Shown piece after piece: positions 16,924 to 30,047 of a DNA stretch of 32,488 nt (position 1 is the stretch's first letter; the number at the start of each line of letters is the position of its first letter). A program made the position numbers and the translations under genes. The stretch spans positions 1-32,488 of the forward strand of contig JAJRPG010000110.1 in assembly GCA_024280855.1 (NCBI GenBank). The letters are read 5' to 3'. The notes below the pieces were generated by a model, which did no database searches, was not told the origin of the DNA, and saw only the letters and a program-made list of their open reading frames with translations. Source of the DNA: Planctomycetota bacterium. Its GTDB lineage: Bacteria; Planctomycetota; Phycisphaerae; UBA1845.

Positions 16924-17706
16924 TTACCCTGCAATAATAATCCTCTCGCCCCGCACCACGCTGCTGCCCAGGCTTACTCGTCGGGCTTCTAGCTGGCTCA
17001 TCGTTGGTTGTAGTCTCGCTAGTCGCATTCTCGGCATAGGAATTGGAACAGGTGACGCTAAGGTTGGCGAGCCGGCTACTGTAGCGTTTATGGCGTTTCC
17101 GGATACGTCCGTTGCGGATACTTGGCTATGATATCCGGGGTGGGTGAATAGCTGTCCTGATGACACACGCGGCCGGAGCCAATGGCTTAGGGCTTCTGCT
17201 TGTGACATGCGGCGGTTGTATATGGCTAGAAACGACAAGTCTCCGGTGAAGGATTGCTGGGCGTTGTAAGTTCTTCCTGCGTTCAACGCTTTTCCAGAGT
17301 CGTTCGCTACTGTGCCAACGCCCGTTGTTTGCGTGCTATATGTTGGCTCCGCAGGCTTAGACGTAAGTGTGCCGTGCAGTATGGTGGGGGCTACGCCGTC
17401 TGAATCCATCAGGCAAACCCACTCCCAGCGGTTCGCCTGGATGATGTTGCTCGATGAATTGACCACAGTATTCGTCGTCGCACGGCGATGAAAGAATTGC
17501 CAATCATTAGACCCCACGCCAAAGGCAGGCCGATTGAGCAACAGTTTGCTGTTGGCTGAATACTCTTTGCTCAAGAGCGTATAAGCGGTGCTAGAAGCCG
17601 TAGCTGAGACGCGATACCAAGCCATGATGGTGATGGCGTCTAATTGATCTAAAAGGCTCGAAGAAAAGCTTAGCCCTTCAGTGTTGCTATTAAAAGTTAG
17701 TGCCAT
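16924..17706 (-). CDS. LamG/concanavalin-like protein at the end of the Mu-like operon
   Basis: 260 aa. The pattern LTFNSNTEGLSFSSSLLDQL, ITIMAWYRVSA, then ...GDLSFLAIYNRRMSQAEALSHW is that of a LamG/pentraxin-like beta-sandwich (a 'concanavalin-like lectin' domain). The C-terminal 50 residues are Pro/Arg/Met-rich (PVPIPMPRMRLARLQP). As the last gene of the operon it is the likely outermost or receptor-binding part of the particle, binding glycans. No signal peptide is present, as expected for a virion protein. It starts 39 bp after the previous stop. Confidence 0.7.
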   Translation of the reverse strand: MALTFNSNTEGLSFSSSLLDQLDAITIMAWYRVSATASSTAYTLLSKEYSANSKLLLNRPAFGVGSNDWQFFHRRATTNTVVNSSSNIIQANRWEWVCLMDSDGVAPTILHGTLTSKPAEPTYSTQTTGVGTVANDSGKALNAGRTYNAQQSFTGDLSFLAIYNRRMSQAEALSHWLRPRVSSGQLFTHPGYHSQVSATDVSGNAINATVAGSPTLASPVPIPMPRMRLARLQPTMSQLEARRVSLGSSVVRGERIIIAG

Positions 17707-17745
17707 ATCATCGTCCCTTATAATGCTGCGTTATTTTTAATACCA

Positions 17746-18222
17746 CTATTCCCAAATGATCGAAGCCTGATGCGTACTAGTCACCGCCAGGGTGCTTGTG
17801 GCATCGAACTTTAACGACATCGTCACGATCTCCCCAGCCACCAAGGTGTCTGCATCGAGCGCGAACTTGGCTTCTTTATACTTGTCCGCATCACCTGTCG
17901 ACCATGTGATTGTCGTATCGCCTTCGAGGTTTAGTGTCGCGGTGAAGGCATTCTCTCCGTTTGGATCGATTGACGCCCATTGCGGCTCCAAGACCACCGT
18001 TCCCGTCACGGCATTAGCCATGGAGACTACGACGAGCTTACCCGTACCGCTGGGAAGCTTTGGCGGTAGGGCGAAACGTAAATGCCAAATGCGATCAACA
18101 GAGATGCTCGCAGCTAGACCCAGCCCCTCCTCGTATCTACTGTTGGCACTATGAACGCTGGGAAATGTTTCACCGGAAGTATCCGGGACGGCACTAAATG
18201 GAAAGATGGGACCACCAGCCAT
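17746..18222 (-). CDS. Beta-rich virion-like protein of the Mu-like operon
   Basis: 158 aa, no signal peptide or membrane segment. Strand-rich sequence with VDRIWHLRFALPPKLPSGTGKL, then ATLNLEGDTTITWSTG and EIVTMSLKFDATSTLAV, suggesting a single jelly-roll or Ig-like domain. Ten bases separate it from the upstream gene. I do not recognise a family. Its position between a fibre-like protein and a LamG protein suggests a particle surface protein; a baseplate or fibre-associated role cannot be excluded. Confidence 0.6.
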   Translation of the reverse strand: MAGGPIFPFSAVPDTSGETFPSVHSANSRYEEGLGLAASISVDRIWHLRFALPPKLPSGTGKLVVVSMANAVTGTVVLEPQWASIDPNGENAFTATLNLEGDTTITWSTGDADKYKEAKFALDADTLVAGEIVTMSLKFDATSTLAVTSTHQASIIWE

Positions 18223-18232
18223 GATTTTTCTC

Positions 18233-18889
18233 CTAATCTATTGTGTATTCTAAAACGATCCAAAGTTTGGTCGGGGCACTGGCTACGGCTGAGGCGTTAT
18301 AGCTAAGCCATTGCTCCGCTGCGACACTGCCTGAACTTGAGAATGCCGTTGTGTTGGCACTTGCCGCAACCGCTTGTAAATTCGACGAGAGGATGTCTGT
18401 ACCAGCTACGTCCGGGGTGTTGGTGCTACGGCGCTCGATGTTAAAGTCCACCGCGCCGACATCCGTCACGGCTCGTACCTGCACGAAAGTGATGTTGTCA
18501 GCCACGAAGGCAATCGGAAATGAATCGCTAGCTATAGGGTCTTCGATGTAAAATATTTTAGTAATCGTGCGATGTTTCGCCGCGAGGCGAGCGCTGGCCA
18601 GGGTTCCTAAACCGATAGATGCGGCGTCTAACAAGCCGCCATTCGCTACGTCCTGGTGGGTATGCACGGCCAGGCTGCCACTAGCGGTTAAGTCGGTTTC
18701 CGCGCCGGTATCATCTTTGGCATAAAGCTTTCCGTCCGACTTGGCGTATATAACAACCGAACCCGTGGGCGGAGCAGGCGGGGCTATCATCTCTTGAAAG
18801 CTCAGCGGCGTATCGTCGCCTAGCATGAGGGCGTCGTCAACGGAAAGGTTTCGTGTTCGCAGGCTGTCGGAATTGTTGGTGATAGGCAT
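18233..18889 (-). CDS. Tail-fibre- or decoration-like protein
   Basis: 218 aa. The N-terminal part has PPTGSVVIYAKSDGKLYAKDDTGAETDL, a phrase often found in phage structural and fibre proteins, then a LAVHTHQDVANGG segment with an H-x-H motif (such motifs bind metal in some trimeric phage fibres) and GLGTLASARL. The C-terminal ~100 residues form a beta domain ending TKLWIVLEYTID. That domain resembles the end of the 254-aa protein at 21871 (PFLVIVDYV). Probably a surface fibre or spike; the exact partner is unknown. Confidence 0.6.
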   Translation of the reverse strand: MPITNNSDSLRTRNLSVDDALMLGDDTPLSFQEMIAPPAPPTGSVVIYAKSDGKLYAKDDTGAETDLTASGSLAVHTHQDVANGGLLDAASIGLGTLASARLAAKHRTITKIFYIEDPIASDSFPIAFVADNITFVQVRAVTDVGAVDFNIERRSTNTPDVAGTDILSSNLQAVAASANTTAFSSSGSVAAEQWLSYNASAVASAPTKLWIVLEYTID

Positions 18890-18904
18890 CGTTATTAATC
18901 CTCG

Positions 18905-19351
18905 TTAAGAAGCGATAGCTAGCCCGACTTCCAGGCCCCAGGTGATGTTGCCGGTGTCAGGGTTGGTCCATTGAATGCGAAGTTGGTCGCCTGCTTGAAA
19001 CGTCCAGGGCGATGGCGGCTGACTTTCCTCGCTCGTGATGCGAAAGTTCACGTCTTCGCCATTGCCCACGCGCATCAACGTATAGAGCAACGAATCGTAG
19101 GCTGTGCCGCTAGCTGAGCTGAGCGATATAGTCATCATCGCTTTCCCGGAAGTGCCGGTATAGTGACACCTAATAAACACAAGGCGGAAGCTTCTATCCA
19201 GCTTGAACAAGTTATTGATGTCGCCGGTCCCGGTGGCTGTACTGCATACCACGAACATAGGCTGTTGAGCGCGAAGCAGTTGCAATTCGCTTTCCTGCTG
19301 CGAAAAACCTAACTGCGCCGTATCCAAAATCTTAGAAATGTCGCTAGCCAT
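18905..19351 (-). CDS. Small structural protein of the Mu-like operon
   Basis: 148 aa, no membrane segment. The N-terminal helix (ISKILDTAQLGFSQQESELQLLR) is followed by beta-rich sequence (FRLVFIRCHYTGTSGKAMMT, WTFQAGDQLRIQWTNPDTGN). The latter phrase suggests a solvent-exposed beta-sandwich, perhaps another head or fibre adaptor. No family recognised. The ATG is separated from the previous stop by two bases, so translational coupling is likely. Confidence 0.6.
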   Translation of the reverse strand: MASDISKILDTAQLGFSQQESELQLLRAQQPMFVVCSTATGTGDINNLFKLDRSFRLVFIRCHYTGTSGKAMMTISLSSASGTAYDSLLYTLMRVGNGEDVNFRITSEESQPPSPWTFQAGDQLRIQWTNPDTGNITWGLEVGLAIAS

Positions 19352-19353
19352 GA

Positions 19354-19800
19354 TTAGGACTCCACGATGTCTGTGAGGTGCGCACTCAGCGCGACGCCTT
19401 GAGGAATTTGAACCCGAAAGGGAACGCCGATTAGCTCTGGCACGCCCGAATTGATTGATGGCACGGTAATGGATGCGTCACCGATGAAAATGACATCGAG
19501 TAAAGTGCGAAGACGTTTTTCGCCCGCGCCGCGATAGCGTATTAACAGGTCAATCGAGGAAGTTAGTCCTAGCAGAGCTTGTGCCACTTGTCCGTCATAA
19601 GAAAAGACAAAGCCAGAGATTCTCGACAGTCCTCGGCCAAAGGTGCCGCGTGGGCCTAGCGTGGCGTCGTCGCCGGAAAAGGGGACGGGTTCGATACCTG
19701 GTTTATAGACGACGCTATGCACGCCTTCGATGGTTGTCTCGGTAAAGGGCGAGCTTTTGAGCTTGGTCGAAGCGCCGCGAGAGGCCAATATCCAAATCAT
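19354..19800 (-). CDS. Small structural protein, possibly a tube- or stopper-like component
   Basis: 148 aa with alternating beta pattern (GVHSVVYKPGIEPVPFSGDD, SSIDLLIRYRGAGEKRLR, GVPFRVQIPQGVALSAHLTD). Its position two genes after gp36, after a likely completion protein, is where neck or tail-tube genes lie in tailed phages, and the length and beta content would fit a tube subunit. This is inference from position; I see no family signature. Confidence 0.5.
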   Translation of the reverse strand: MIWILASRGASTKLKSSPFTETTIEGVHSVVYKPGIEPVPFSGDDATLGPRGTFGRGLSRISGFVFSYDGQVAQALLGLTSSIDLLIRYRGAGEKRLRTLLDVIFIGDASITVPSINSGVPELIGVPFRVQIPQGVALSAHLTDIVES

Positions 19801-19821
19801 TATATCACCTTATTTATAGCG

Positions 19822-20304
19822 TTAAGCTGCTGGCACGCGATTTTGTAATCGCTGCACTGTCACCACGAATGTTTGCTTGCCGGTCACGCTCACGACGCGC
19901 GAGCCGGATGAGGTTTTGGCGTTTTCAAATGTCCAGTCGCGGTCGTCGAAACCTGTCGCGCCTTCGAGGATGCCGGTGTCGATAAGGCTATCCAGATAGT
20001 CATCAACCGCGCCAACGGCATCTAACATCGCGGCGTGCGCGTCCGCTTGAATCGCATCAACATAACTTCGCAGCGTCATGTTCACTTCGATGAGCTTGTC
20101 GTTGTCCATCGCGCCAATCACACGGGCACGCGATAGCTGAATGGCTAGAAAGGGCCGTGGAAAAGCTTCCGCGCCACTGTCACCAACGACGATACTGCGA
20201 AAAGGTTTCGTCTTGGTGGGCGGATTGGCTACGAGGTTGGTTTCGAGAAGAGAAACGAACGTGTCGATAGCCGCCTTGACTGTTGTTCTATCTGCTGTTG
20301 GCAT
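19822..20304 (-). CDS. Probable head-tail completion / gp37-like protein
   Basis: 160 aa, directly after the gp36-like gene (19 bp apart). An alpha/beta protein: an N-terminal helix (TTVKAAIDTFVSLLETNLVA), a central helix (AHAAMLDAVGAVDDYLDSLIDTG), then strands (RVVSVTGKQTFVVTVQRL). The layout recalls tail-terminator or completion proteins and the Mu gp37 position, but the match is by size, order and secondary structure only. Confidence 0.5.
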   Translation of the reverse strand: MPTADRTTVKAAIDTFVSLLETNLVANPPTKTKPFRSIVVGDSGAEAFPRPFLAIQLSRARVIGAMDNDKLIEVNMTLRSYVDAIQADAHAAMLDAVGAVDDYLDSLIDTGILEGATGFDDRDWTFENAKTSSGSRVVSVTGKQTFVVTVQRLQNRVPAA

Positions 20305-20323: not shown

Positions 20324-20764
20324 TTAGAAATCTGAAAGTTCACCGCGTGATAATGTTCGCGTGTCGCCGATAGTCGCCGCGTTTTTTCCTCGGTTGCTGC
20401 TGAGGGCGACGCCGGGGCTTGGTAATTCGAGCGTGCCGTCGGCTATACGGGCCAGCCAGGTTAGTGCGTGGCGAAGTCGCTCGCTGACATCCTTAGCTAC
20501 GGGCGGGCGTCGGAGTCGTAAGCGATGTTCGGCCAGGTCTAGCGTGACGGAGGTTAGCAGGCCAACCAAGCTTGTGTGAATGGTAAGGTCAATGGGCGTT
20601 TCGTATCGCCGGGCTAGATAGCTATTGACCTCGCCTTCAGCCGCGTTGCGCACTTCATCGAGGACGGCGGTATCGGCTTGGCCATCACCGTCGTCGTCGG
20701 TTAGTTGAAGCAGCGATGGAAGGCCTACTCGGTCTTGCATATTTTGATTGGTAATGTAACTCAT
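20324..20764 (-). CDS. Mu gp36-like (DUF1320) head protein
   Basis: 146 aa from the ATG at 20764, chosen because AGGA lies nine bases upstream; an ATG three codons earlier is overlapped by that site, and a longer frame runs back into the capsid gene. MSYITNQNMQDRVG, LTDDDGDGQADTAVLDEVRNAAEGEVNSYLARRY and the C-terminal RLRHALTWLARIADG match the gp36/DUF1320 family of Mu-like phages, which sits after the major capsid and acts at the head-neck junction. The length fits Mu gp36. Confidence 0.82.
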   Translation of the reverse strand: MSYITNQNMQDRVGLPSLLQLTDDDGDGQADTAVLDEVRNAAEGEVNSYLARRYETPIDLTIHTSLVGLLTSVTLDLAEHRLRLRRPPVAKDVSERLRHALTWLARIADGTLELPSPGVALSSNRGKNAATIGDTRTLSRGELSDF

Positions 20765-20873
20765 CGTGGTCATTCCTATTTTTGTGTCGCATGTATGGCA
20801 CTCTAAACAACATAACTCCCGACAGGCGAGGCCAGCCAATGACCAGCCTCGCCTGGGGGTGCTGCCTGCCGGT

Positions 20874-21797
20874 TTAACTTGGCACGGCGAATAGGGTGCG
20901 GGTGGCGAACTGCCAATAGCCATAGGCCATGCGATAGCGGGCGCGGACGCCGTAGAGATATTTCTCTCGACGGAAGCCTTCTTCGCTGTTTTCGGTGAGC
21001 GACGTGAATTCAATTGGCTCGCGGTCCTGGAAAATGAAAGGACGAATGACGCCGTCGGTTTTAAGCAGATACCAACGTCTGATGTCGGTTAGCCAAGGTA
21101 CGGCGATGATGCGGGCCGCGCCAACCAGGACATTGGCTGTGCTGTCCACGACAGTAGCATTTACCGCTTCGAGGGCGGTGAGATACAACGCGGCTGGGAC
21201 TACGGCGACGAGATTAGTGGCTCCGAAAACCATCAGCTCGCCTTGGTCGTCATTAAAATCGTGCATGCTGGTGATAGCCTGCTTGAGCGCGGCTTTGAAT
21301 TCATCGACGGTGGGGTTGTCCGGGTCTACGGCGTCTGCGCCCAGTCGATTATCCTGCGTTCCAGACGAGCCGGATTGGTGCGTGCTGGAGAAAAACGTCG
21401 TGCCGTCGTAGCTATTAAAGCCTGTCGTTTCGCCGTTGATGAGTAGTTGGGCGAGAAGATAGTCTTTGTGGGTGGCCGCTCGTTGGGCGAGTTCGGCGAT
21501 GCGGATGCGAATTTGGCCGGTCTTGTCGTCGGCTATTTCGTCACGGTCTACTTCGAGGGTGGATTCGTATTTTAAGTTTTCGACGGAGTAACTTTCAGTA
21601 CGCAGTCCACGGGCGAGTCGGCCTGTGCCCCACTCTCTCATGCGTGGCAGGGAGCCTAGCCAACGATAAGTTTCGCTGTCAGAGTTGGAGGTGATGCGAG
21701 TGCTTAAATCCTGATAGAAAGTTGACGTCGCATCGAAGCGATTTAGGAATTCGCTGCGTAAGCCTTTGCTTAGCAGTCCGGTGTTGATGATAGCCAT
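20874..21797 (-). CDS. Mu-like major capsid protein gpT
   Basis: 307 aa, close to Mu gpT. It forms the icosahedral shell (HK97 fold). Typical gpT features are the N-terminal LSKGLRSEFLNRFDA, the motif W(L)GSLPRMREW-TG-R, VENLKYESTLEVDRDEIADD, the GFNSYDGTTFFSSTHQ segment and the C-terminal YRMAYGYWQFATRTLF. The reading frame is intact with no missing core. A 109-bp gap, the longest in the operon, separates it from gp36. Confidence 0.92.
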   Translation of the reverse strand: MAIINTGLLSKGLRSEFLNRFDATSTFYQDLSTRITSNSDSETYRWLGSLPRMREWGTGRLARGLRTESYSVENLKYESTLEVDRDEIADDKTGQIRIRIAELAQRAATHKDYLLAQLLINGETTGFNSYDGTTFFSSTHQSGSSGTQDNRLGADAVDPDNPTVDEFKAALKQAITSMHDFNDDQGELMVFGATNLVAVVPAALYLTALEAVNATVVDSTANVLVGAARIIAVPWLTDIRRWYLLKTDGVIRPFIFQDREPIEFTSLTENSEEGFRREKYLYGVRARYRMAYGYWQFATRTLFAVPS

Positions 21798-21870: not shown

Positions 21871-22635
21871 TTAGACGTAGTCAACGATGACAAGGAACGG
21901 GCCAGGGTCGGCGGTGGCTCCGTTGGTTACGGCTAGGGTGAGTACGTCGCCGCCGTCGATGTGCTGATTGCTCAGTGCGCCGAGGTCGTTTTTGCTGTTC
22001 GCAGCCGGGAAGACGGTGGTGGCGTTATAGGTTTTGGTGACGACGGTTCCTACGCCGGTGGCTAAGATGATGGCACAGGTGTTTGAATTGTCGATACCAG
22101 CGGAGGCTGTCGCCTGGTTGACAATGCGGGCGGAGATTAGCCATGCTTCGTTGTCGAAGCCTTGAATGGCGCGGGCGGCGATGTCTGCGCCGGCGGCGAG
22201 ATTTTCGACGGGATGAACGACGGTTTTAATTTGTCGATTAGCTGTGTCGAGGCGAAGGATAATCTCACCCGTCGAAACCACGTCTTGAGCTATACCGACG
22301 TAGGAATTAGCCGCGGCGGTGAAGGTGAGGGTATCGTCTGCGGAGGCGAATACGGGGCGACCTATATCAGTCGTAGCTGCTCCGGTGAGGGAGAGTCCGA
22401 AGTCGCCGATGGTGTAAACACGAAGCGAAAGTGCGCCATCTGCGCCGCTGGTGTTATCCATTTCTTCGTAGGCGATGCCGATGAATTTGTCCGAGGCGGT
22501 AAGCGGCTGAGCATATCCGGTGGCGGATAGGCCGATGAATGAGCCTTTGTAGACGTGTTTCGCTGCGGCGATTTGGAAGGCTCGCAATTCCTGGTCGATG
22601 TAGTGGTCTACTTCTGTGTTGGCGGTAAGTGGCAT
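21871..22635 (-). CDS. Capsid decoration-like protein between protease and capsid genes
   Basis: 254 aa. The N-terminal ~120 residues (ITKHVYKGSFIGLS-like pattern: AAKHVYKGSFIGLSATGYAQ, FIGIAYEEMDN, GDFGLSLTGAATTDIG) match the small DUF2190-like or cement-type proteins that lie before the major capsid in Mu-like phages (gp33 position). The C-terminal ~110 residues are an extra beta domain ending DPGPFLVIVDYV that resembles the end of the 18233 protein. The two-domain build is longer than Mu gp33 and suggests a decorated capsid surface. AGGAAA precedes the ATG. Confidence 0.65.
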   Translation of the reverse strand: MPLTANTEVDHYIDQELRAFQIAAAKHVYKGSFIGLSATGYAQPLTASDKFIGIAYEEMDNTSGADGALSLRVYTIGDFGLSLTGAATTDIGRPVFASADDTLTFTAAANSYVGIAQDVVSTGEIILRLDTANRQIKTVVHPVENLAAGADIAARAIQGFDNEAWLISARIVNQATASAGIDNSNTCAIILATGVGTVVTKTYNATTVFPAANSKNDLGALSNQHIDGGDVLTLAVTNGATADPGPFLVIVDYV

Positions 22636-22702
22636 GATAAATGTTTCCTTTCTTGAATTTTTCTTGGTTCAAACGTGTTCACAAATGCGTAAGCGTAGCT
22701 GA

Positions 22703-23656
22703 CTAATTTTTAGATGGCTGGACGCCGCTATCTTGCATGGCGTCTTTGACGTAGGCCTCTTCGGTGGTGAGCGAGGCGAGTAAAGGATTAGCCCGGAACT
22801 CGGCGCGGGCGCTGGCTATGGCTGATCGCTGACTGCAAGAGGCCGCCATCGTGACACTATTTTCGAGACTTCGTCCCAAAGACACGATGACCGGGGCGTT
22901 TTGCAGCCATTGGTCGAAGAGGGATTCGTCTTTGGCGATAAGCTGCTGTGCCCAGGGTTGCAAAGCTTGGGTGAGCTTACCGGTTCGCATAGCATGGTCG
23001 ATGCGGTTGTCGGTGTGCTGCTGATGACTTAGCGTTTCGAGTTTGGTGATGCGGTTGCTGGCTGCGATGAGCAGGTCGGTGATTCCGGCGGATTGAGGCA
23101 GGGACAGCGTGGTTCGCAAGGCGTCCATCATGGGTGACACTTCCTCGTCATTAGAAAGCTGCTGGGCGTTGACGATGGGTGTCATGCCAACGATCGCAGG
23201 CTTGTTGGTGAGCGCGGCGGAGTGGATGGCGATTAGTTTGCGGTCGGATTTGCGAATGATAGCTACGGGTGAGAGGAAGCGATATTGCTTGGCGACCAGC
23301 ATTTCCTGAGCTTTTTCGGTCCACTCGATTTCGGCGAAGATGCCCACGTTAGGCTCGGCGATGATGCTTTTGATCCAACCGGCGGCGGGCGCTTGACCGT
23401 TGGGTGAGGCGTATTGGCCTCCGAGTGTTTGGTGTTCGTAGTCGATGGGAAGGTCCGTGCCATGATCGTCGAAGGCGGCGAGTACGAGGTCGGCGGCTTC
23501 GGCGTCGATGGTGAATGATCCGTTGGTGCTTTCGACATTTCCCCACGGGGCAATGAGGATGCGGGTGGCGAGTGCGTCGGCTTGCAGGGTGGCCGATCGT
23601 AACGGCTGAATCTCTCGCGTTTGGTCTGGTGTTTTCATGTTGTCTTTTGTCATCAT
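22703..23656 (-). CDS. Mu gpI-like prohead protease/scaffold
   Basis: 317 aa from the ATG at 23656 (an ATG at 23653 is equally good); GGAG lies nine bases upstream, whereas an ATG at 23692 has none and overlaps a promoter-like motif. The N-terminal protease domain carries LPIDYEHQTLGGQYASPNGQ, APAAGWI, EIEWTEKAQEML and the YRFLSPVAI...IHSAALTNKPAI signature of the Mu I protease. The C-terminal half (about 160-317) is helix-rich, as in the fused scaffold region. It matures the prohead and removes the scaffold. A 21-bp motif shared with the terminase gene lies at 23690-23710. Confidence 0.9.
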   Translation of the reverse strand: MMTKDNMKTPDQTREIQPLRSATLQADALATRILIAPWGNVESTNGSFTIDAEAADLVLAAFDDHGTDLPIDYEHQTLGGQYASPNGQAPAAGWIKSIIAEPNVGIFAEIEWTEKAQEMLVAKQYRFLSPVAIIRKSDRKLIAIHSAALTNKPAIVGMTPIVNAQQLSNDEEVSPMMDALRTTLSLPQSAGITDLLIAASNRITKLETLSHQQHTDNRIDHAMRTGKLTQALQPWAQQLIAKDESLFDQWLQNAPVIVSLGRSLENSVTMAASCSQRSAIASARAEFRANPLLASLTTEEAYVKDAMQDSGVQPSKN

Positions 23657-23689
23657 CTGATGTTCTCCGTTTTGTGTGGTCAGTGCTGT

Positions 23690-23710
23690 CATATAAAGAA
23701 CAACGCCGGT
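23690..23710 (-). promoter_or_regulatory. Shared motif upstream of the protease gene
   Basis: On the minus strand ACCGG, two variable bases, then TTGTTCTTTATATG. It ends 34 bases before the protease ATG at 23656. The copy at 26450-26470 upstream of the terminase gene is identical in 19 of 21 bases. No -35 box stands 17 bp upstream of the TATATG, as in activator-dependent Mu late promoters. Confidence 0.6.
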
Positions 23711-23738
23711 GGTTGCTCCGCGCGAACTTTTGGTGCGA

Positions 23739-25013
23739 TCATGTCGTCGATTTTGTCGGGAAAGATGGGCTTTCCTGCTCCTGGGGGATGTTTAAGGTTT
23801 CATGCATCCATTTTTTAGGAACGGATAAACCGAGCTTATTGATGGCTTGATCAAGAAGATCAGCCTTAGCTACTCGCTGATCGAAGCGGGTGGTGATGCG
23901 GTGGAATTGAGGGACGGGTGCATCGGGGCTAAAGCGTAGTTGGACCATGGGGGCGAGGAGGTCGCGTTGGATGGTGCGGGCTTCTTTGCGCATGTCGTCG
24001 GCGAGTATTTCTCCGCGCACACGTTCGTGGACCTGGGCGGCGGCGATGGATCCGCTTTGGCCTGTGATGTCGGTGGAGAGTGTTTGTCCTAGCCAAGCTT
24101 TGCTAAGTTCGCGGTTTAGGAATTGGATTAAACTTTCGTAAGGCGCACTGCCACCGCTGCGACGGGGTTCGAGCAGTTGCAGATCAACGCTTTGGCTAAA
24201 GAGTCCGGCGGCTTGTGAGCCTAGCGATTCGAGCATGTGGATGAGTTCGCGTTTTTCCTCGGCGGTGGTGTTAGGCCCGTAGCGGGCGACGCGGACGGGC
24301 ATGCCGAAAATTTCTGCGAAGATCATCCAGTCTTTAATAGCTAGGTTCTTGGCGAGGTAGATCATGGAGGTGACGCGGGCGACGCCGCCTCGTTGGGGAT
24401 GGCCTGAGACACTGTGGGGCGTGTGGATGATGAATTTGTTGGGCGGAGGGGCGATGCCGGTGCGGTCGTTGTCGGAGGTGAGAAGTCTGGGCTGATCGAA
24501 TTCGTCGAATACGATGCGTGAGAAATTGACGGGGACAAAGTCAATGGGTCTTAAGCCTGCGTCATCAACGTCCCAGACTATTTCTGAGATAGCGATGTTT
24601 CGACCGACGGCGAGCGAGAGGTGTTGTAAGGTGTCGTCGAAGCTGTCGCAGCGCTGGAGCTGATGTCGGCAGTAGTCGGCGGTTTGATCGGCTAAGATTT
24701 GGCTTTGCTCCGATGCCACATTAGCGGCACTAACGATTTGCCAGGGTAAGCCGGTGAGTGATAGGCGGCGGGTTTGGGCGACGGCGTAGAGGTGGGCGTC
24801 TTTTTCCTCCATTTCCTCGTAGAGAGAAAACATGGCTGAGGGCGATCCTTCGTCAGCTTCGCGGAGGATGGCGAAGAGCCGTGAGGGGGTTAGGCCTGCG
24901 CTGGGGTAGTCGCGGACGGTGTCTTGTAGGCGGGGGACCAGAGATTGGCCTGCTTTGGGTGGTGGCGGTTTTAATGATCGAACTGCGCCGACGATTCGCT
25001 CTTTCCATGTCAT
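23739..25013 (-). CDS. Mu gp29-like portal protein (DUF935)
   Basis: 424 aa. Portal subunit that forms the ring through which DNA enters and leaves the head. Signatures of the DUF935 family are SRLFAILREADEGSPSAMFSLYEEMEEKDAHLYAVAQTRR, GLPWQIV, FHIP-like FIIHTPHSVSGHPQRGG, LAKNLAIKDWMIFAEIFGMPVRVARYG and FLNRELSKAWLGQTLSTD. It is shorter at both ends than the about 510-residue Mu protein. It starts 51 bases after the terminase stop. Confidence 0.92.
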   Translation of the reverse strand: MTWKERIVGAVRSLKPPPPKAGQSLVPRLQDTVRDYPSAGLTPSRLFAILREADEGSPSAMFSLYEEMEEKDAHLYAVAQTRRLSLTGLPWQIVSAANVASEQSQILADQTADYCRHQLQRCDSFDDTLQHLSLAVGRNIAISEIVWDVDDAGLRPIDFVPVNFSRIVFDEFDQPRLLTSDNDRTGIAPPPNKFIIHTPHSVSGHPQRGGVARVTSMIYLAKNLAIKDWMIFAEIFGMPVRVARYGPNTTAEEKRELIHMLESLGSQAAGLFSQSVDLQLLEPRRSGGSAPYESLIQFLNRELSKAWLGQTLSTDITGQSGSIAAAQVHERVRGEILADDMRKEARTIQRDLLAPMVQLRFSPDAPVPQFHRITTRFDQRVAKADLLDQAINKLGLSVPKKWMHETLNIPQEQESPSFPTKSTT

Positions 25014-25064
25014 GTTTTTCTCCTTGAGGTTGTTATTGCGTTACTGATGTCATGTGTTGGTCCA

Positions 25065-26393
25065 TTACCATGCGCCGATTCGTGCGAATGAAAGTGGCTT
25101 TGTGTTTACGGATTCGATGGTTGCGTAAGCGTTGTGGGCTGCGCGAACGGCGAGGGCAGCCGCCCAGAAGCGGTCGGCGTGGCTGCCATGTTGCCGTGGG
25201 GCGGAGATGCGAAAGTTTCCGCTGCTGGTCATGGACCGCTCGACGCTGTGCCAGTCGTTGATGATGGCGTCGCGGTTGGGGATGCGGATGCTTTTGTTTT
25301 CCACGGCGATGCGCAGGTCACCGGCGAGTGATGATTTTAAGGACGAGGTGAAGGTGACAGGTTCGACGCGATGTTTTCCGAATCGGGTGAGAAGCTCCTC
25401 GGCTAATTGCATGCCTAATCCTCCGGCGTCTATGCAGCACTTTTTGACGCAACGTAGTGAGAGCAGTTGGTGGAGCATGGCTTGTTGCGCTCGAAAGGGG
25501 GCTGCGGATAATTCGAATATTCCCACCGTAGAAAGAACATCGCCGTTGATTTGTAAAACCCAGACGACGGTGAGATCATGCAGCCGACCGATGTCTACGC
25601 CGATGTAGAGATCGCCAGAGTCGGAGGTTAGGTCGGTCACGTTTTCAGCTGGGGCGAGATGCTCGTCTACGCAGGCGAGAATTTGGTCGTAGCTTAGCAG
25701 GGCGGTGGCTTCTTCGACGAATTCGCAGAGGAATTCCTGACGAAAGAGCAGGTCGTCGTTACAGGCTTCGCGCAGGGCGACGATGTCGACGTTTAGGCCT
25801 TGCTTGATAGCGTCTGGGAGGGTGAGGGTGTCGGTGGTGAAGCGGGGATTGTTGCGGAGTTCGTAAAAGAGATTGCCCTTGCCTTTGGGAGTGGAGGCTA
25901 TGTCCAGTTCGCCGTTGCCTCGGAGGAGGGTGGGGAATAGTGCCGCCCATATGTCACGGTCGTCGCGGTGCATGGCGAATTCATCGAGCAGGACGTCGCC
26001 AGTGTAGCCTCGGGCGGTTTGGGGGTTAGCGGGCAGGCCTATGATGCGCACGCCGCCGGGTAAAATGATTTCGCTGGAAGTAAAGTGCATGTCGTTGAAG
26101 TAGGTGGAGCCTTTGAATTGAGTGGTTATTTGTAATACTTGGCAATGTTGGCGGGCTTTGAGCATGAGTTCGCGTGATTGGCGCATCCCGGCTGAGAGGA
26201 ATATTTGGTTTCGTCTGCAGGAAATGCCACGGATGATGCGGCGTAGAGATTTCGTGAAGCTCTTGCCGGTTTGCCTAGCCCAGCAGTTCCAGCGGAAGCG
26301 GTCGTTGGATTCGAGGTCGCGGAGCTGGTAGGGGTGCAGGGGGATGATGGGCTTGGGGCGAGCGGGTTGCTTGGTGGCTGATTGTTTTGGCAT
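25065..26393 (-). CDS. Mu gp28-like terminase large subunit
   Basis: 442 aa from the ATG at 26393 (MPKQSATKQ...); a longer frame upstream is out of keeping with the family and covers the shared promoter-like motif. The ATPase domain has a Walker A variant at 39-46 (ARQTGKSF) and Walker B LLDEFA with Asp 137 and Glu 138. The RNase H-like nuclease domain begins LYIGVDIGR (Asp 267) and continues with CCIDAGGLG (about 322). It packages DNA through the portal. All catalytic residues are in place, so the motor looks competent. It is shorter than Mu gp28, and no small terminase gene lies upstream. Confidence 0.92.
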   Translation of the reverse strand: MPKQSATKQPARPKPIIPLHPYQLRDLESNDRFRWNCWARQTGKSFTKSLRRIIRGISCRRNQIFLSAGMRQSRELMLKARQHCQVLQITTQFKGSTYFNDMHFTSSEIILPGGVRIIGLPANPQTARGYTGDVLLDEFAMHRDDRDIWAALFPTLLRGNGELDIASTPKGKGNLFYELRNNPRFTTDTLTLPDAIKQGLNVDIVALREACNDDLLFRQEFLCEFVEEATALLSYDQILACVDEHLAPAENVTDLTSDSGDLYIGVDIGRLHDLTVVWVLQINGDVLSTVGIFELSAAPFRAQQAMLHQLLSLRCVKKCCIDAGGLGMQLAEELLTRFGKHRVEPVTFTSSLKSSLAGDLRIAVENKSIRIPNRDAIINDWHSVERSMTSSGNFRISAPRQHGSHADRFWAAALAVRAAHNAYATIESVNTKPLSFARIGAW

Positions 26394-27084
26394 GATGATT
26401 ACGCTTTTTGAAAAAAAGGATTTGCGATGATTCGGATTAGGTCGCTCTACATATAAAGAACAAGTCCGGTGATCTATGGAGAGGGGATAAGGAATAGCGC
26501 GCTTCAATCCATCAAATCTAATATTGAAGGAGGGGCTTATCGGGTAAACCCCCAATTTCAATGCTGCATGCTATTGATGCCAACACGATGCCCCCATGGG
26601 TCATGGGCTATTTTTAGCTTTAATCGTGCGTTTCCATTCGGAGTATTGAGGAATTCGATTGTAGATTTAATATTTACCAGGAATTGTATTATTTTGTTGC
26701 ATATCAAAAACGAAAAGTTACAATGGGGTTGCGTTAACAAGAGATGCGTTCTTATCGTGTTTATTGCATATTCGTGTCTCCTTTTTTTGTTGTGTTAAGT
26801 CGTGCGTGACAGTTTCTAGCTTGGGTCGCGCTCGGTCTAAAAATTGAGAGTGGCGTGGGGTATGGATCACGCGTTCCATATCTCTTCGCGCCTATCGAAA
26901 AGTGCGTTGCACGTAATCGTCTTATTTTGTGAGTCATAAGACTGTGGTTGGGGTGTGCGCACGAGAGATTGTCGTGATCTCATGAGAGCGTTTGGTATCC
27001 TAACTCCTCTTATGTGCTAAATCACTACAAACTCCCTGCGAAAAGAATATTGAAGATTTCTGTCCTCGCTTGTGGAGAAAAGAA
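26394..27084. other. Divergent control region upstream of the terminase operon
   Basis: About 690 bp, AT-rich, without a convincing gene; the open frames across it have no family resemblance. It holds the 21-bp motif at 26450-26470 and must contain the promoters of the leftward capsid operon and of the rightward secreted-protein gene. No repressor, transposase or integrase gene is visible. Confidence 0.55.
26450..26470 (-). promoter_or_regulatory. Shared motif upstream of the terminase gene
   Basis: On the minus strand ACCGG, AC, then TTGTTCTTTATATG, ending 56 bases before the terminase ATG. It matches the motif before the protease gene; the only differences are the two bases after ACCGG. 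Confidence 0.6.
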
Positions 27085-28667: not shown

Positions 28668-30047
28668 TTACGGACCCGTGAAAGCGGCTTGGAATAAAGC
28701 GTAGTCTGTCAGGTCGCCATTAAATTGGGCTTGGTAAGTTGCGAAATCTTGCAGGTCTATACGGAATGAATCAGGCGTAAAGTCGTTGCTATCTGTAAAA
28801 GCGACATTGAATACATACGCCGATCCGCACTGCTCGCCCTTGTCGCAGTCATCGCCAATGGCGCCAGCTACAGCCGTGATTCCATCTAACGCGACGTAGT
28901 ATCCTAAATCATCCCCTCTTCCCGAATCAGATGCTGTCAGCTTCTGCATTTGGACCCAGGAAATTCCGTCGAAATGATATGCGTATGCTGATCCGCAGAA
29001 GATGCCTGTCGCGCAATCGTCTGCGAATGCGCCAGCTACGACTGTGTTTCCGCTGATGGCTACGGACCTACCAAATCGGTCCTGGGCTGTCGCGTCGAAA
29101 GCGGTTAGTATTTGCTCCTCAAACCAGGAAGCGCCGTTATATCTAAAAACATAAGCGGCTCCGCACACAAATGAATCTTTCTCGACGCAGCCTGCGAGCC
29201 AGGCACCGACAGCTATCGCGTCACCACTTAACGACACGGAAATCCCAAATCGATCTCGATCAGCGTCGGAGGCGGTTAGTTTTTGCTCTTCGATCCAGGA
29301 AGTGCCGTTATATCGAAACACATAAGCCGAACCGCAAAGCGTGCCGGCATCACAAATGCTTTGGGAAGCTCCGACTACTAGTGTGTTACCTTTAATGGAC
29401 ACGCTCGTGCCAAATGCGTGCCTTCCGCTAGTGTCAGATCCTGAAATTTTTTGTTGCTCGATCCAGGAGTCGCCGTCGAACCAAAAGACATAGGCGGCTC
29501 CGCTATTAGGTCTACCCGGCATGCCATCAGCACCATGGGCTCCGACGATCATGTAGTCTCCATTCAAAGATACAGAAATGCCAAAAAAATCACTTGTCGC
29601 AGCGTCAGAAGCGACGAGCTTTTGTTGTTCAACCCACAAGGATCCGTTGAAATGGAAGACATAAACCGAGCCACAATTATCGCCTGCAGTACAGTCATCT
29701 CTGAAAGCGCCAACGATGGCGGTGTCGGCGTCCACAGCGACAGAAACGCCGTAGCCATCAAAATCTTCGGTGTCGGATGCGATTAGAATTTGCTCTTGAA
29801 TCCAATTCGTGTTGCGTAGGCGGTAGATGTATGCCCGGCCAAGCTCTACAGCGTCTACAGTGCCTACCGCGCCCACTACAATCACATCACCAGAAATTGA
29901 GATGGTCCGTCCGTAGAGGTCGAACTCGCTGGCATCTGAAGCGGTCAACTTTTGTTTCTCTTCGTTTACGACGATGGCCAATGCCGCTGATGCGCTAACA
30001 AAAACCACTGAGGCGAATACGAGACGTTTTGCGATACTTATTTTCAC
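28668..30047 (-). CDS. Secreted integrin-like FG-GAP beta-propeller protein
   Basis: 459 aa, GTG start with AGGAG seven bases upstream. Signal peptide to about residue 24 (SASAALA). Seven or so repeats of the form WxEQQKLxASDxxxxDxFGxSVSxxGDxxxVGAxxDDCxxGxxCGSAYVF make one FG-GAP propeller. The C-terminus (NDFTPDSFRIDLQDFATYQAQFNGDLTDYALFQAAFTGP) is the degenerate dockerin-like tail common in planctomycete secreted proteins. It converges with the ASPIC gene with 11 bp between the stops. Extracellular or surface role inferred. Confidence 0.8.
   Translation of the reverse strand: MKISIAKRLVFASVVFVSASAALAIVVNEEKQKLTASDASEFDLYGRTISISGDVIVVGAVGTVDAVELGRAYIYRLRNTNWIQEQILIASDTEDFDGYGVSVAVDADTAIVGAFRDDCTAGDNCGSVYVFHFNGSLWVEQQKLVASDAATSDFFGISVSLNGDYMIVGAHGADGMPGRPNSGAAYVFWFDGDSWIEQQKISGSDTSGRHAFGTSVSIKGNTLVVGASQSICDAGTLCGSAYVFRYNGTSWIEEQKLTASDADRDRFGISVSLSGDAIAVGAWLAGCVEKDSFVCGAAYVFRYNGASWFEEQILTAFDATAQDRFGRSVAISGNTVVAGAFADDCATGIFCGSAYAYHFDGISWVQMQKLTASDSGRGDDLGYYVALDGITAVAGAIGDDCDKGEQCGSAYVFNVAFTDSNDFTPDSFRIDLQDFATYQAQFNGDLTDYALFQAAFTGP

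Follow-up and report, generated by a model that had tools for sequence, protein, structure and literature searches.

A conserved inverted-repeat element precedes the terminase and protease genes of a Mu-type capsid operon in a phycisphaerean genome

Analysis of a 32,488-nucleotide stretch of planctomycete DNA (the window) showed that a 21-bp motif repeated in a phage-type capsid operon is the core of an element of ~60 bp, and that the signal before both capsid genes, the terminase and the protease, is a real, conserved control element. It is most likely an activator-dependent promoter, which would be read by a dimeric DNA-binding protein varying between lineages, and it probably wires together a domesticated phage particle. 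Taken as a whole, a promoter-proximal control element, bound by a dimeric factor and serving a domesticated operon resembling a gene transfer agent (GTA), is the best explanation that the sequences suggest, and we hold it to be somewhat better than an even bet. The sequences themselves show the element, the number, position and strand of its copies, its recurrence in other genera, and the age of the operon and the purifying selection on it; its action in transcription, the activating role of the factor and the identity of that factor are inferred.

A scan of the window located two exact minus-strand copies of the motif, ACCGGNNTTGTTCTTTATATG, at 23690-23710 and 26450-26470, and no further matches with up to three mismatches; 100 shuffled sequences gave none. 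The sequence-only reading had described this 21-mer, in one orientation, before the terminase and protease genes, and it was correct. Its distances of 56 and 34 bp stood for the terminase (56 nt from the motif to the ATG at 26393) and not for the protease, where the first ATG outside the motif, at 23656, is 33 nt away. As an in-frame protease ATG (23692-23690) sits inside the motif copy, the protease start is uncertain (23692 or 23656), and the element in the portal-protease gap overlaps a possible start codon. Both copies had been described as lacking a properly spaced -35 box; a scan restricted to the sigma-70 consensus found no sigma-70-like sites in 22600-26700 (shuffle mean 2.0).

The conserved stretch exceeds the reported 21-mer, with its start ~31 nt farther upstream and its end ~5 nt past the motif. 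The element is comprised of TGATCNCTC, ~17 nt, and GATCACC-N6-GTTCTTTAYATG, and contains three boxes (Table 1). The spacing of the box1 and box2 half-sites varies from 23 to 27 bp and does not correspond to complete turns of the helix. Between box2 and box3 no gap was opened in alignments of 35 and 24 sites, a spacing that the patterns used to find the sites favour. Box3 is boxA-like in the window's own genus only, and becomes GTTAT or GTTGT in other genera. The two upstream elements of the window were in the training sets of both profiles, R1 and R2. A third, weak copy, coding by its coordinates, sits within terL, ~910 nt away from the site that precedes the gene; G001 has an equally placed copy that scores 35 bits, and G002 also has one. 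R2 missed the window's own internal copy and saw none inside terL of other genera.

Table 1. Capsid operon genes and copies of the element in the window.
Feature	Position	Strand	Evidence or detail
terL, terminase large subunit	25065..26393	-	Terminase_6N/6C E 1e-13, 2.5e-14; phrog_5909, phrog_2
Mu-type portal protein	23739..25013	-	Portal_Mu E 3e-87
Mu I-like head maturation protease	22703..23692 (start 23692 or 23656)	-	Mu-like_Pro E 5e-54 for 22703-23659
Structural cement-like protein	21871..22635	-	phrog_1731 E 3e-21; Pfam Phage_cement E 0.0076, under cut-off
Major head protein gpT	20874..21797	-	Mu-like_gpT E 1e-55
Mu Gp36-like protein	20324..21013	-	Phage_Mu_Gp36 E 4e-22
Six more same-strand ORFs	16924..20304	-	Five without family match; last (16924-17706) with Laminin_G_3 domain
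Element before terL	26444..26504	-	R1 47.1 bits, R2 25.4 bits; site before terL in other genera
Boxes upstream of terL	box1 ~26501-26492; box2 26474-26466; box3 26461-26450		box1 variant CGCGCTATTC; box2 GATCACCGG; box3 GTTCTTTATATG
Element in portal-protease gap	23684..23746	-	R1 43.5 bits, R2 23.2 bits; compared with 11 other genomes
Boxes of the gap element	box1 ~23741-23732; box2 23714-23706; box3 23701-23690		box1 TGATCGCACC; box2 AACCACCGG; box3 GTTCTTTATATG
Third, weak copy, inside terL coding sequence	25522..25581	-	R1 21.3 bits, E 8e-4 per genome

The capsid operon is an old one that evolves under purifying selection (dN/dS 0.11-0.14). Its gene order is the same in the window, G043, G042, G013 and G034, and terL is present in 77 of the 114 genomes of the order. 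The terL tree (52 rows) largely follows the host families, with label changes at their minimum, which is 5; families f5 and f8 each form one clade and f1 does not, family labels standing in for a host tree. The operon looks like a GTA-type remnant. In PMC9662315, GTA viriforms are defined by Caudoviricete-derived structural proteins, endogenised often at several loci, and by vertical co-diversification with their hosts; they encapsidate mostly random host DNA, cannot fully package their own genome, and deliver DNA to other cells. The likeness extends to the head genes (terL, the Mu portal, the Mu protease, gpT and Gp36, by Pfam and PHROGs), to more than one host locus (the main operon plus a winged-helix-like locus apart from it) and perhaps to vertical co-diversification, of which there are signs. 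The planctomycete system is known from its genes, and its particle, packaged DNA and delivery are putative. Among the genes of the window, none was identified as a tail gene.

When the R2 profile was run on 36 capsid-operon loci (175 kb, 32 genomes), 35 matches were obtained at E<=0.5, with 18 before terL (16 genomes) and 13 in the portal-protease gap (11 of the 32 genomes). The rest were three matches inside terL (G001, G002) and one opposite-strand echo, and there were none elsewhere in the 36 loci. R2 had been trained on 16 other-genus terL sites, three terL sites and one protease site of the own genus, and four others; only the terL matches in G055, G054 and G017 are therefore independent of its training, and the sole gap site in the training set was that of the genome holding the window (G000). 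A separate expectation-maximisation (EM) profile is circular, as it feeds on its own sites. The element profile gave no matches in 98 kb of other loci.

The family's terL upstream regions were also compared with control windows, using profiles that left out the tested genus and every GTA-locus site; of 42 regions, 20 reached p<=0.01 (0.4 expected) and 22 fell short. In an earlier run the own-genus sample could hold terL sites, and the rerun gave the same counts. The other-genus sites feeding this test were found by R2, and the terL sites of G055 and G002 escaped both runs, since their distance upstream is greater than the region used. With a looser profile the element was found in 34 of 51 family genomes, at up to ~50 copies each and with lineage-specific half-sites, and 17 had no match. 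Conservation before orthologous genes held where it is visible, but not in every genome.

A second, detached locus, which carries a small winged-helix-like gene, has the element in front of it as well. Among 30 such loci (97 kb), nine had a match, in every case upstream of the winged-helix gene and on its strand, and 21 had none. Relatives of this locus elsewhere adjoin a terL, and the ORF neighbouring the gene is read as small-terminase-like. The predicted structure of the winged-helix protein was of low confidence (pLDDT 66.9). In a PDB fold search all matches had E >0.001 and, among the matches listed, nearly all were winged-helix regulators; a PDB sequence search with the protein gave nothing better than E>=0.12. 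The sites before terL and protease orthologues in other genera and at this second locus uphold the earlier proposal of a regulon-type signal.

The further proposal that the signal is capsid-specific was not upheld. In its phycisphaerean host genome, a profile search found 27 copies at E<=0.001, most upstream of unrelated genes or facing convergent genes (7 of the 25 sites judged non-coding face one), and the other downstream genes shared no common theme. Many promoter-unrelated copies would have counted against a regulatory role, and most of the extra copies, judged by a crude ORF call, lie between genes. In other genera, as we read them, many copies have no obvious ORF after them. The rRNA operon that was located is without the element, and viral contigs held no stretch exactly matching one pattern, a search that diverged copies could escape.

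The comparison with phage Mu made from the sequence is apt in part. Mu late promoters have non-consensus -10 and -35 regions and an activator drawn as a dimer, and there are several per gene set, including one for gene I; the window likewise has no consensus -35/-10 pair, the likeness being one of description. The Mu-type activator did not carry over, as the Mor/C family (PF08765) was over the Pfam cut-off in 0 of 51 family genomes, with one weak match below it in G013, and copies here lie far outside phage genes. Another parallel is the Caulobacter GTA (CcGTA), whose promoters are bound by GafY, IHF and GafZ (PMC11150451), a near-perfect palindrome being required for GafZ binding and GTA production. 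As against that system, the host phylum here is another, the head genes are of Mu type, and the inverted repeat is long-spaced and followed by an additional box.

Several other explanations were weighed. Antitermination sites of rrn leaders have a boxB-boxA arrangement, and the inverted arms followed by GTTCTTT resemble it. The element could be an RNA-level signal, a hairpin with the boxA-like GTTCTTTA, which loads Nus-type factors and completes long untranslated or polar transcripts; this we regard as unlikely. Box3 is similar by eye to the genome's own rrn leader (TGTTCTTTGACAA), and the more rrn-like CGCTCTTTGACAAYTRAATAG follows an element by 31-132 nt at all 13 places where it was found (G000, G001). 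Arm complementarity exceeded permutation across genera (27 sites, P 0.0006; the arms were hand-picked and the sequences are related), but within five genomes the arms matched their own partners no better than swapped ones (P 0.83-0.997), and for this reason the hairpin is kept as no more than a rival. Folding-energy z-scores over the arms were low in G055 (mean -2.84) and less so, from GATC on, in G000 (-1.10), yet those near the sites were unremarkable in G001, G004 and G043. RNAalifold predicted no pairs over 35 sites, and outside the own genus box3 departs from boxA. Rfam gave no matches at the gathering score for the window and 14 site loci. Structured RNA directly after the motif had seemed likely by eye and was not borne out by the z-scores. 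Anti-termination is employed by a Caulobacter GTA (PMC11150451), a precedent in favour of this reading.

A promoter class of a dedicated alternative sigma factor, with the boxes as its recognition elements, would account for the gap-free box2-box3 alignments and for the placement of sites upstream of genes, and is less likely still. The box1-box2 spacing is variable, and the box2-box3 step is shorter than the -35/-10 of the sigma-70 family allows. The sigma-54 signature is GG at -24 and GC at -12; when the sites are aligned on CAC, the 35-site counts give AT and GT there instead, and a second full rpoN was not found in G000. Sigma-54 had been considered as the box2-box3 geometry resembled -24/-12 and second partial Sigma54_DBD matches occur in G000, G001 and G058. 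The idea was dropped: the G000 match belongs to a small protein of a prophage-like region, that of G001 is a short RpoN-like tail, and the two G058 matches appear to be parts of a single gene divided between two contigs. A repetitive or mobile intergenic family with a promoter-like end, beside the capsid genes by chance, is improbable. Its high copy number would fit, as would the ~300 bp around the element common to four G000 copies and one G001 copy (a fifth G000 copy shares the first half) and the AAACNAACCCATT sequence following 38 of 59 copies in five other genomes; chance, however, lacks the power to hit the same two operon gaps and the second locus in many genera. It is disfavoured for the capsid sites and could explain the origin of the extra copies. 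The least probable reading takes the copies not for promoters but for sites where the GTA-like terminase starts packaging (pac-like) or otherwise processes DNA. Copies do have a direction, occur both within terL and close to it, and are dispersed through the genome, but the GTA-locus matches are nearly all on the coding strand in gaps upstream of genes, and the terL-internal copies are confined to one genus.

We return to the control element as the favoured reading. The motif would be the core of a promoter-proximal element whose inverted half-sites, TGATCN...NGATCA, are recognised by a DNA-binding protein that acts as a dimer and is most likely an activator. The box 13 nt downstream, GTTCTTTAYATG here and of GTTAT type elsewhere, would belong to the core promoter or the start region. 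The oldest identifiable job of the element would be to switch on the domesticated, GTA-like head operon of Mu type from two places, one ahead of terL and one ahead of the protease, and the same switch would also turn on the winged-helix-like locus with its neighbouring ORF. Each lineage would later have altered the half-sites jointly across copies, and placed or captured many extra ones. Pairing of the arms across genera but not within genomes is as expected of one trans-acting dimer with drifting specificity. Counting against this reading are the terL regions, winged-helix loci and family genomes that gave no match, the half-site spacing, the copies that face convergent genes or lack an obvious ORF, and the absence of a theme among the other downstream genes.

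A bolder version, which we put forward as doubtful, is that an undescribed Mu-headed GTA spans one order of the Phycisphaerae, its loci wired by a fast-evolving palindromic promoter. This would be read by the winged-helix protein of the GTA's own second locus, which has the same element upstream of its gene. Tens of further promoters would have been captured per lineage, many launching boxA-protected non-coding or antisense transcripts, such that particle production might reprogram much of the cell.

If the favoured reading is true, this would be a GTA-type system in a lineage for which no report was found in the open-licence literature searched, and the motif would predict particle loci, inducing conditions and the responsible protein. 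It would further illustrate clearly how a single palindromic element can shift jointly across dozens of sites of a genome, and in several lineages, which would help in studying the co-evolution of a regulator and its sites.

The 21-mer ACCGGNNTTGTTCTTTATATG, which the sequence-only reading had described as repeated in the same orientation before the terminase and protease genes, was recovered exactly at both places (see the table) and nowhere else in the window, with none found in 100 shuffles. A related 25-mer pattern was present in three stretches among the GTDB species genomes, from which own-genome records were possibly excluded. Each of the three belonged to one MAG, Phycisphaerae bacterium OFTM182, and on this basis the source genome was assigned to the phycisphaerean planctomycetes. 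The 21-mer lies within a conserved element of ~60 bp, with the consensus TGATCNCTC, ~17 nt, AGATCACCGG-N4-GTTCTTTAYATGGAG. This was derived from an alignment of 35 sites (22 from the source genome, G000, 12 from G001 and 1 from G002, both of the same genus), in which 10 columns were invariant. The motif, proposed as a regulon signal, proved to have further copies when the 4.56 Mb source genome, in which the window is contig C24, was scanned with R1, a strict sequence-only profile built from these sites: 27 copies were found at E≤0.001, of which 22 had served to build R1. Three weaker R1 matches were opposite-strand overlaps of strong sites.

Positions of the element and of other features
Feature	Location	Setting
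21-mer copy	window 23690-23710, minus strand	portal-protease gap
21-mer copy	window 26450-26470, minus strand	before terL
Third weak element copy	window 25522-25581	inside terL; counterpart inside terL of G001 (35 bits) and of G002
Element copy	C80:18618-18678	upstream of 119-aa protein gene and a further ORF
CGCTCTTTGACAAYTRAATAG, 7 occurrences	G000: C5, C6, C10, C47, C84, C88, C93
CGCTCTTTGACAAYTRAATAG, 6 occurrences	G001: C40, C58, C79, C83, C98, C107
FG-GAP_2 repeat protein	window 28668-30047	DNA periodicity 168/171 nt
Second, prophage-type terL (L198)	G000:C7:55000-68000	53 % identical; own winged-helix-like gene directly upstream
Prophage-like region (L230)	G000:C6:53500-60000	large replication-type protein; by reading, capsid-like protein; a tandem pair of 79-aa proteins, with a match to the end of the sigma-54 DNA-binding domain in the first

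Judged against ORFs of ≥80 aa, 22 of the G000 sites were intergenic, four overlapped an ORF and the remaining one fell within terL by coordinates. Three of the overlaps (C16:97676, C24:26444 and C1:11503) were read as involving a doubtful N-terminal extension only, and one site (C19:46238) was deep within an ORF. The next ORF was on the same strand at 18 of the 25 sites judged non-coding and convergent at 7. The downstream genes were diverse, and included peptidase M2, lipid A acyltransferase, peptidase S15 and rotamase by Pfam, a globin just under the Pfam cut-off, and cysS, SulP, galE and tuf, named by reading the protein sequence. The promoter of the rRNA operon was of the TTGACA/TATGAT type by eye, and no R1 match was present at the rRNA operon found.

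R1 sites were present in only 7/51 genomes of the family. A looser profile from 24 diverse sites, R2, identified sites in 34/51 at E≤0.05 per genome (among these, G000 and G043 had 27 each, G001 had 22, G014 had 29, and both G004 and G055 reached 51) and none in 17/51; up to 107 candidates were scored per genome under stricter filters, so that weak sites were lost. The half-sites differed by lineage, with TGATCT...AGATCA in that of G000, TGATCG...CGATCA in several genera and TGATCC...GGATCA in G059. The TGATC-to-GATC step varied (23-27), and the GATC-to-GTT step was constant at 13 nt in alignments, a spacing that the site-finding patterns favour.

At 36 capsid-operon loci from 32 genomes (175 kb, some loci stopping short of the portal-protease gap), R2 gave 35 matches at E≤0.5. 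Of these, 18 (from 16 genomes) preceded terL and 13 (from 11 genomes) fell between portal and protease; three were inside terL in G001 and G002, and one was an opposite-strand echo, with none elsewhere in these loci. The gap sites, except that of G000, lay outside the R2 training set, and the gap element was compared side by side in 12 genomes, including G001. Conservation upstream of orthologous terL, by whose absence the sequence-only reading was to be judged, held in part: with profiles lacking any GTA-locus site and leaving out the tested genus, 20/42 upstream regions scored at p≤0.01 (0.4 expected), whereas 22/42 were above p 0.01. Outside the source genus, 18/39 regions and 14/26 genera scored at p≤0.01. 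R2 had no match in 98 kb of other loci, including one terL locus of family f8. In f8, 1/16 terL upstream regions scored >10 with an EM profile, and the 119-aa winged-helix-like protein described below was matched in one genome. Seven f8 regions (L180, L190, L195, L197, L199, L201 and L203) shared by eye a different string around GAGCAA(G), perhaps another clade-specific signal.

Besides six smaller ORFs, the capsid operon comprises terL, Mu portal, Mu protease, a cement-like protein, gpT and Gp36, and its gene order is identical across the five genomes compared. Matches to terL (E≤1e-20) were found in 77/114 genomes of the order and 46/51 of the family, the best being 85-90 % identical within the genus and mostly 56-69 % within the family. 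In a tree of 52 rows (30 from family f1, 21 from other families and the second terL of G000), f5 and f8 each formed one clade (100/99), and host-family labels changed the fewest possible times overall; f1 was not a single clade and many inner forks were weakly supported. The dN/dS of terL, portal and protease was 0.11-0.14 against G001 and G002. Phage relatives were distant (89 matching records, all <60 %; best among the matches listed, 36.8 %). The operon appears to fit the sequence-testable parts of the gene transfer agent (GTA) definition used (PMC9662315). No report of a GTA in Phycisphaerae or Planctomycetota was found in the open-licence literature searched. In the portions of the sources available, a GTA operon was described in an alphaproteobacterial MAG (PMC13055281), the TerL of a predicted prophage in the planctomycete Zavarzinella was placed near RcGTA-like TerLs (PMC7947584), and incomplete prophages were reported in Phycisphaerales MAGs, with GTAs as a general possibility only (PMC8597652); GTAs occurred only among the references of PMC11237797 and PMC12213060, and planctomycetes were unmentioned in PMC12946183.

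The rrn-like CGCTCTTTGACAAYTRAATAG (≤3 mismatches) occurred 13 times in G000 and G001, each time 31-132 nt downstream of an R1 match, and five of the seven G000 occurrences faced convergent genes. Six more matches were found in G043, G006 and G065, the position relative to the element being compared for G000 and G001 alone. AAACNAACCCATT (≤1 mismatch) followed 38/59 element copies in five other genomes (L265-L323 of G055, G004, G043, G014 and G012), counted at the copies alone; in G055 it was often doubled, 50 nt apart. These sequences hint at non-coding transcripts. Repeats of ~300 bp holding the element and ending near the rrn-like sequence were seen at L069, L006, L008 and L015 (G000) and L033 (G001), and the first half only at L011.

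The element could be recognized as a hairpin in each RNA or as a symmetric DNA site. Across genera, the two arms of a site complemented each other better than swapped arms did (P 0.0006 over 27 GTA sites; arms hand-picked, rows related), and an earlier, simpler test was weaker (6/400 and 17/1000 permutations equally good). Within genomes, own arms had no advantage over swapped arms (P 0.97 in G000, 0.997 in G001, 0.99 in G004, 0.86 in G055 and 0.83 in G043), so arm pairing tracks the genome and not the individual site. A hairpin in each RNA does not predict this, and RNAalifold found no conserved fold across the 35 sites; the pattern is what a symmetric site bound by one changing dimer would predict.

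The 119-aa protein encoded at the detached C80 locus was present in 60/114 genomes of the order and 44/51 of the family, and matched phrog_436 (E 1e-5). The further ORF there, tentatively read as small-terminase-like, a label from no search, was matched in 24/30 loci. R2 gave nine matches at these 30 loci, all upstream on the gene strand and four <15 bits, and none at 21; in G055 and G054 a site lay ~1.5 kb upstream of the gene on the same strand, just beyond the stretches scanned. In G000 (C7), G013 (C16), G056 (C200) and G103 (C130), a more diverged copy of the protein shared its contig with a neighbouring terL match, which was the genome's second terL in G000, G013 and G103; R2 detected no element at that of G000.

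We judge an activator-dependent promoter to be the most likely reading of the element, at slightly better than an even chance. The nearest working models, in the portions of the sources available, are the Mu late promoters (PMC4461284) and those of the Caulobacter GTA, in which GafZ requires a palindrome and ~18 accessory promoters are sites of action of GafY and IHF (PMC11150451). No Mor/C protein, the Mu activator family, scored above cut-off in the 51 family genomes. The 119-aa protein has the winged-helix order of elements in a low-confidence predicted structure, with best fold matches to F-93, MarR and PadR type regulators (all E 0.01 or worse), and its position and this fold guess make it a candidate factor that may act at the element.
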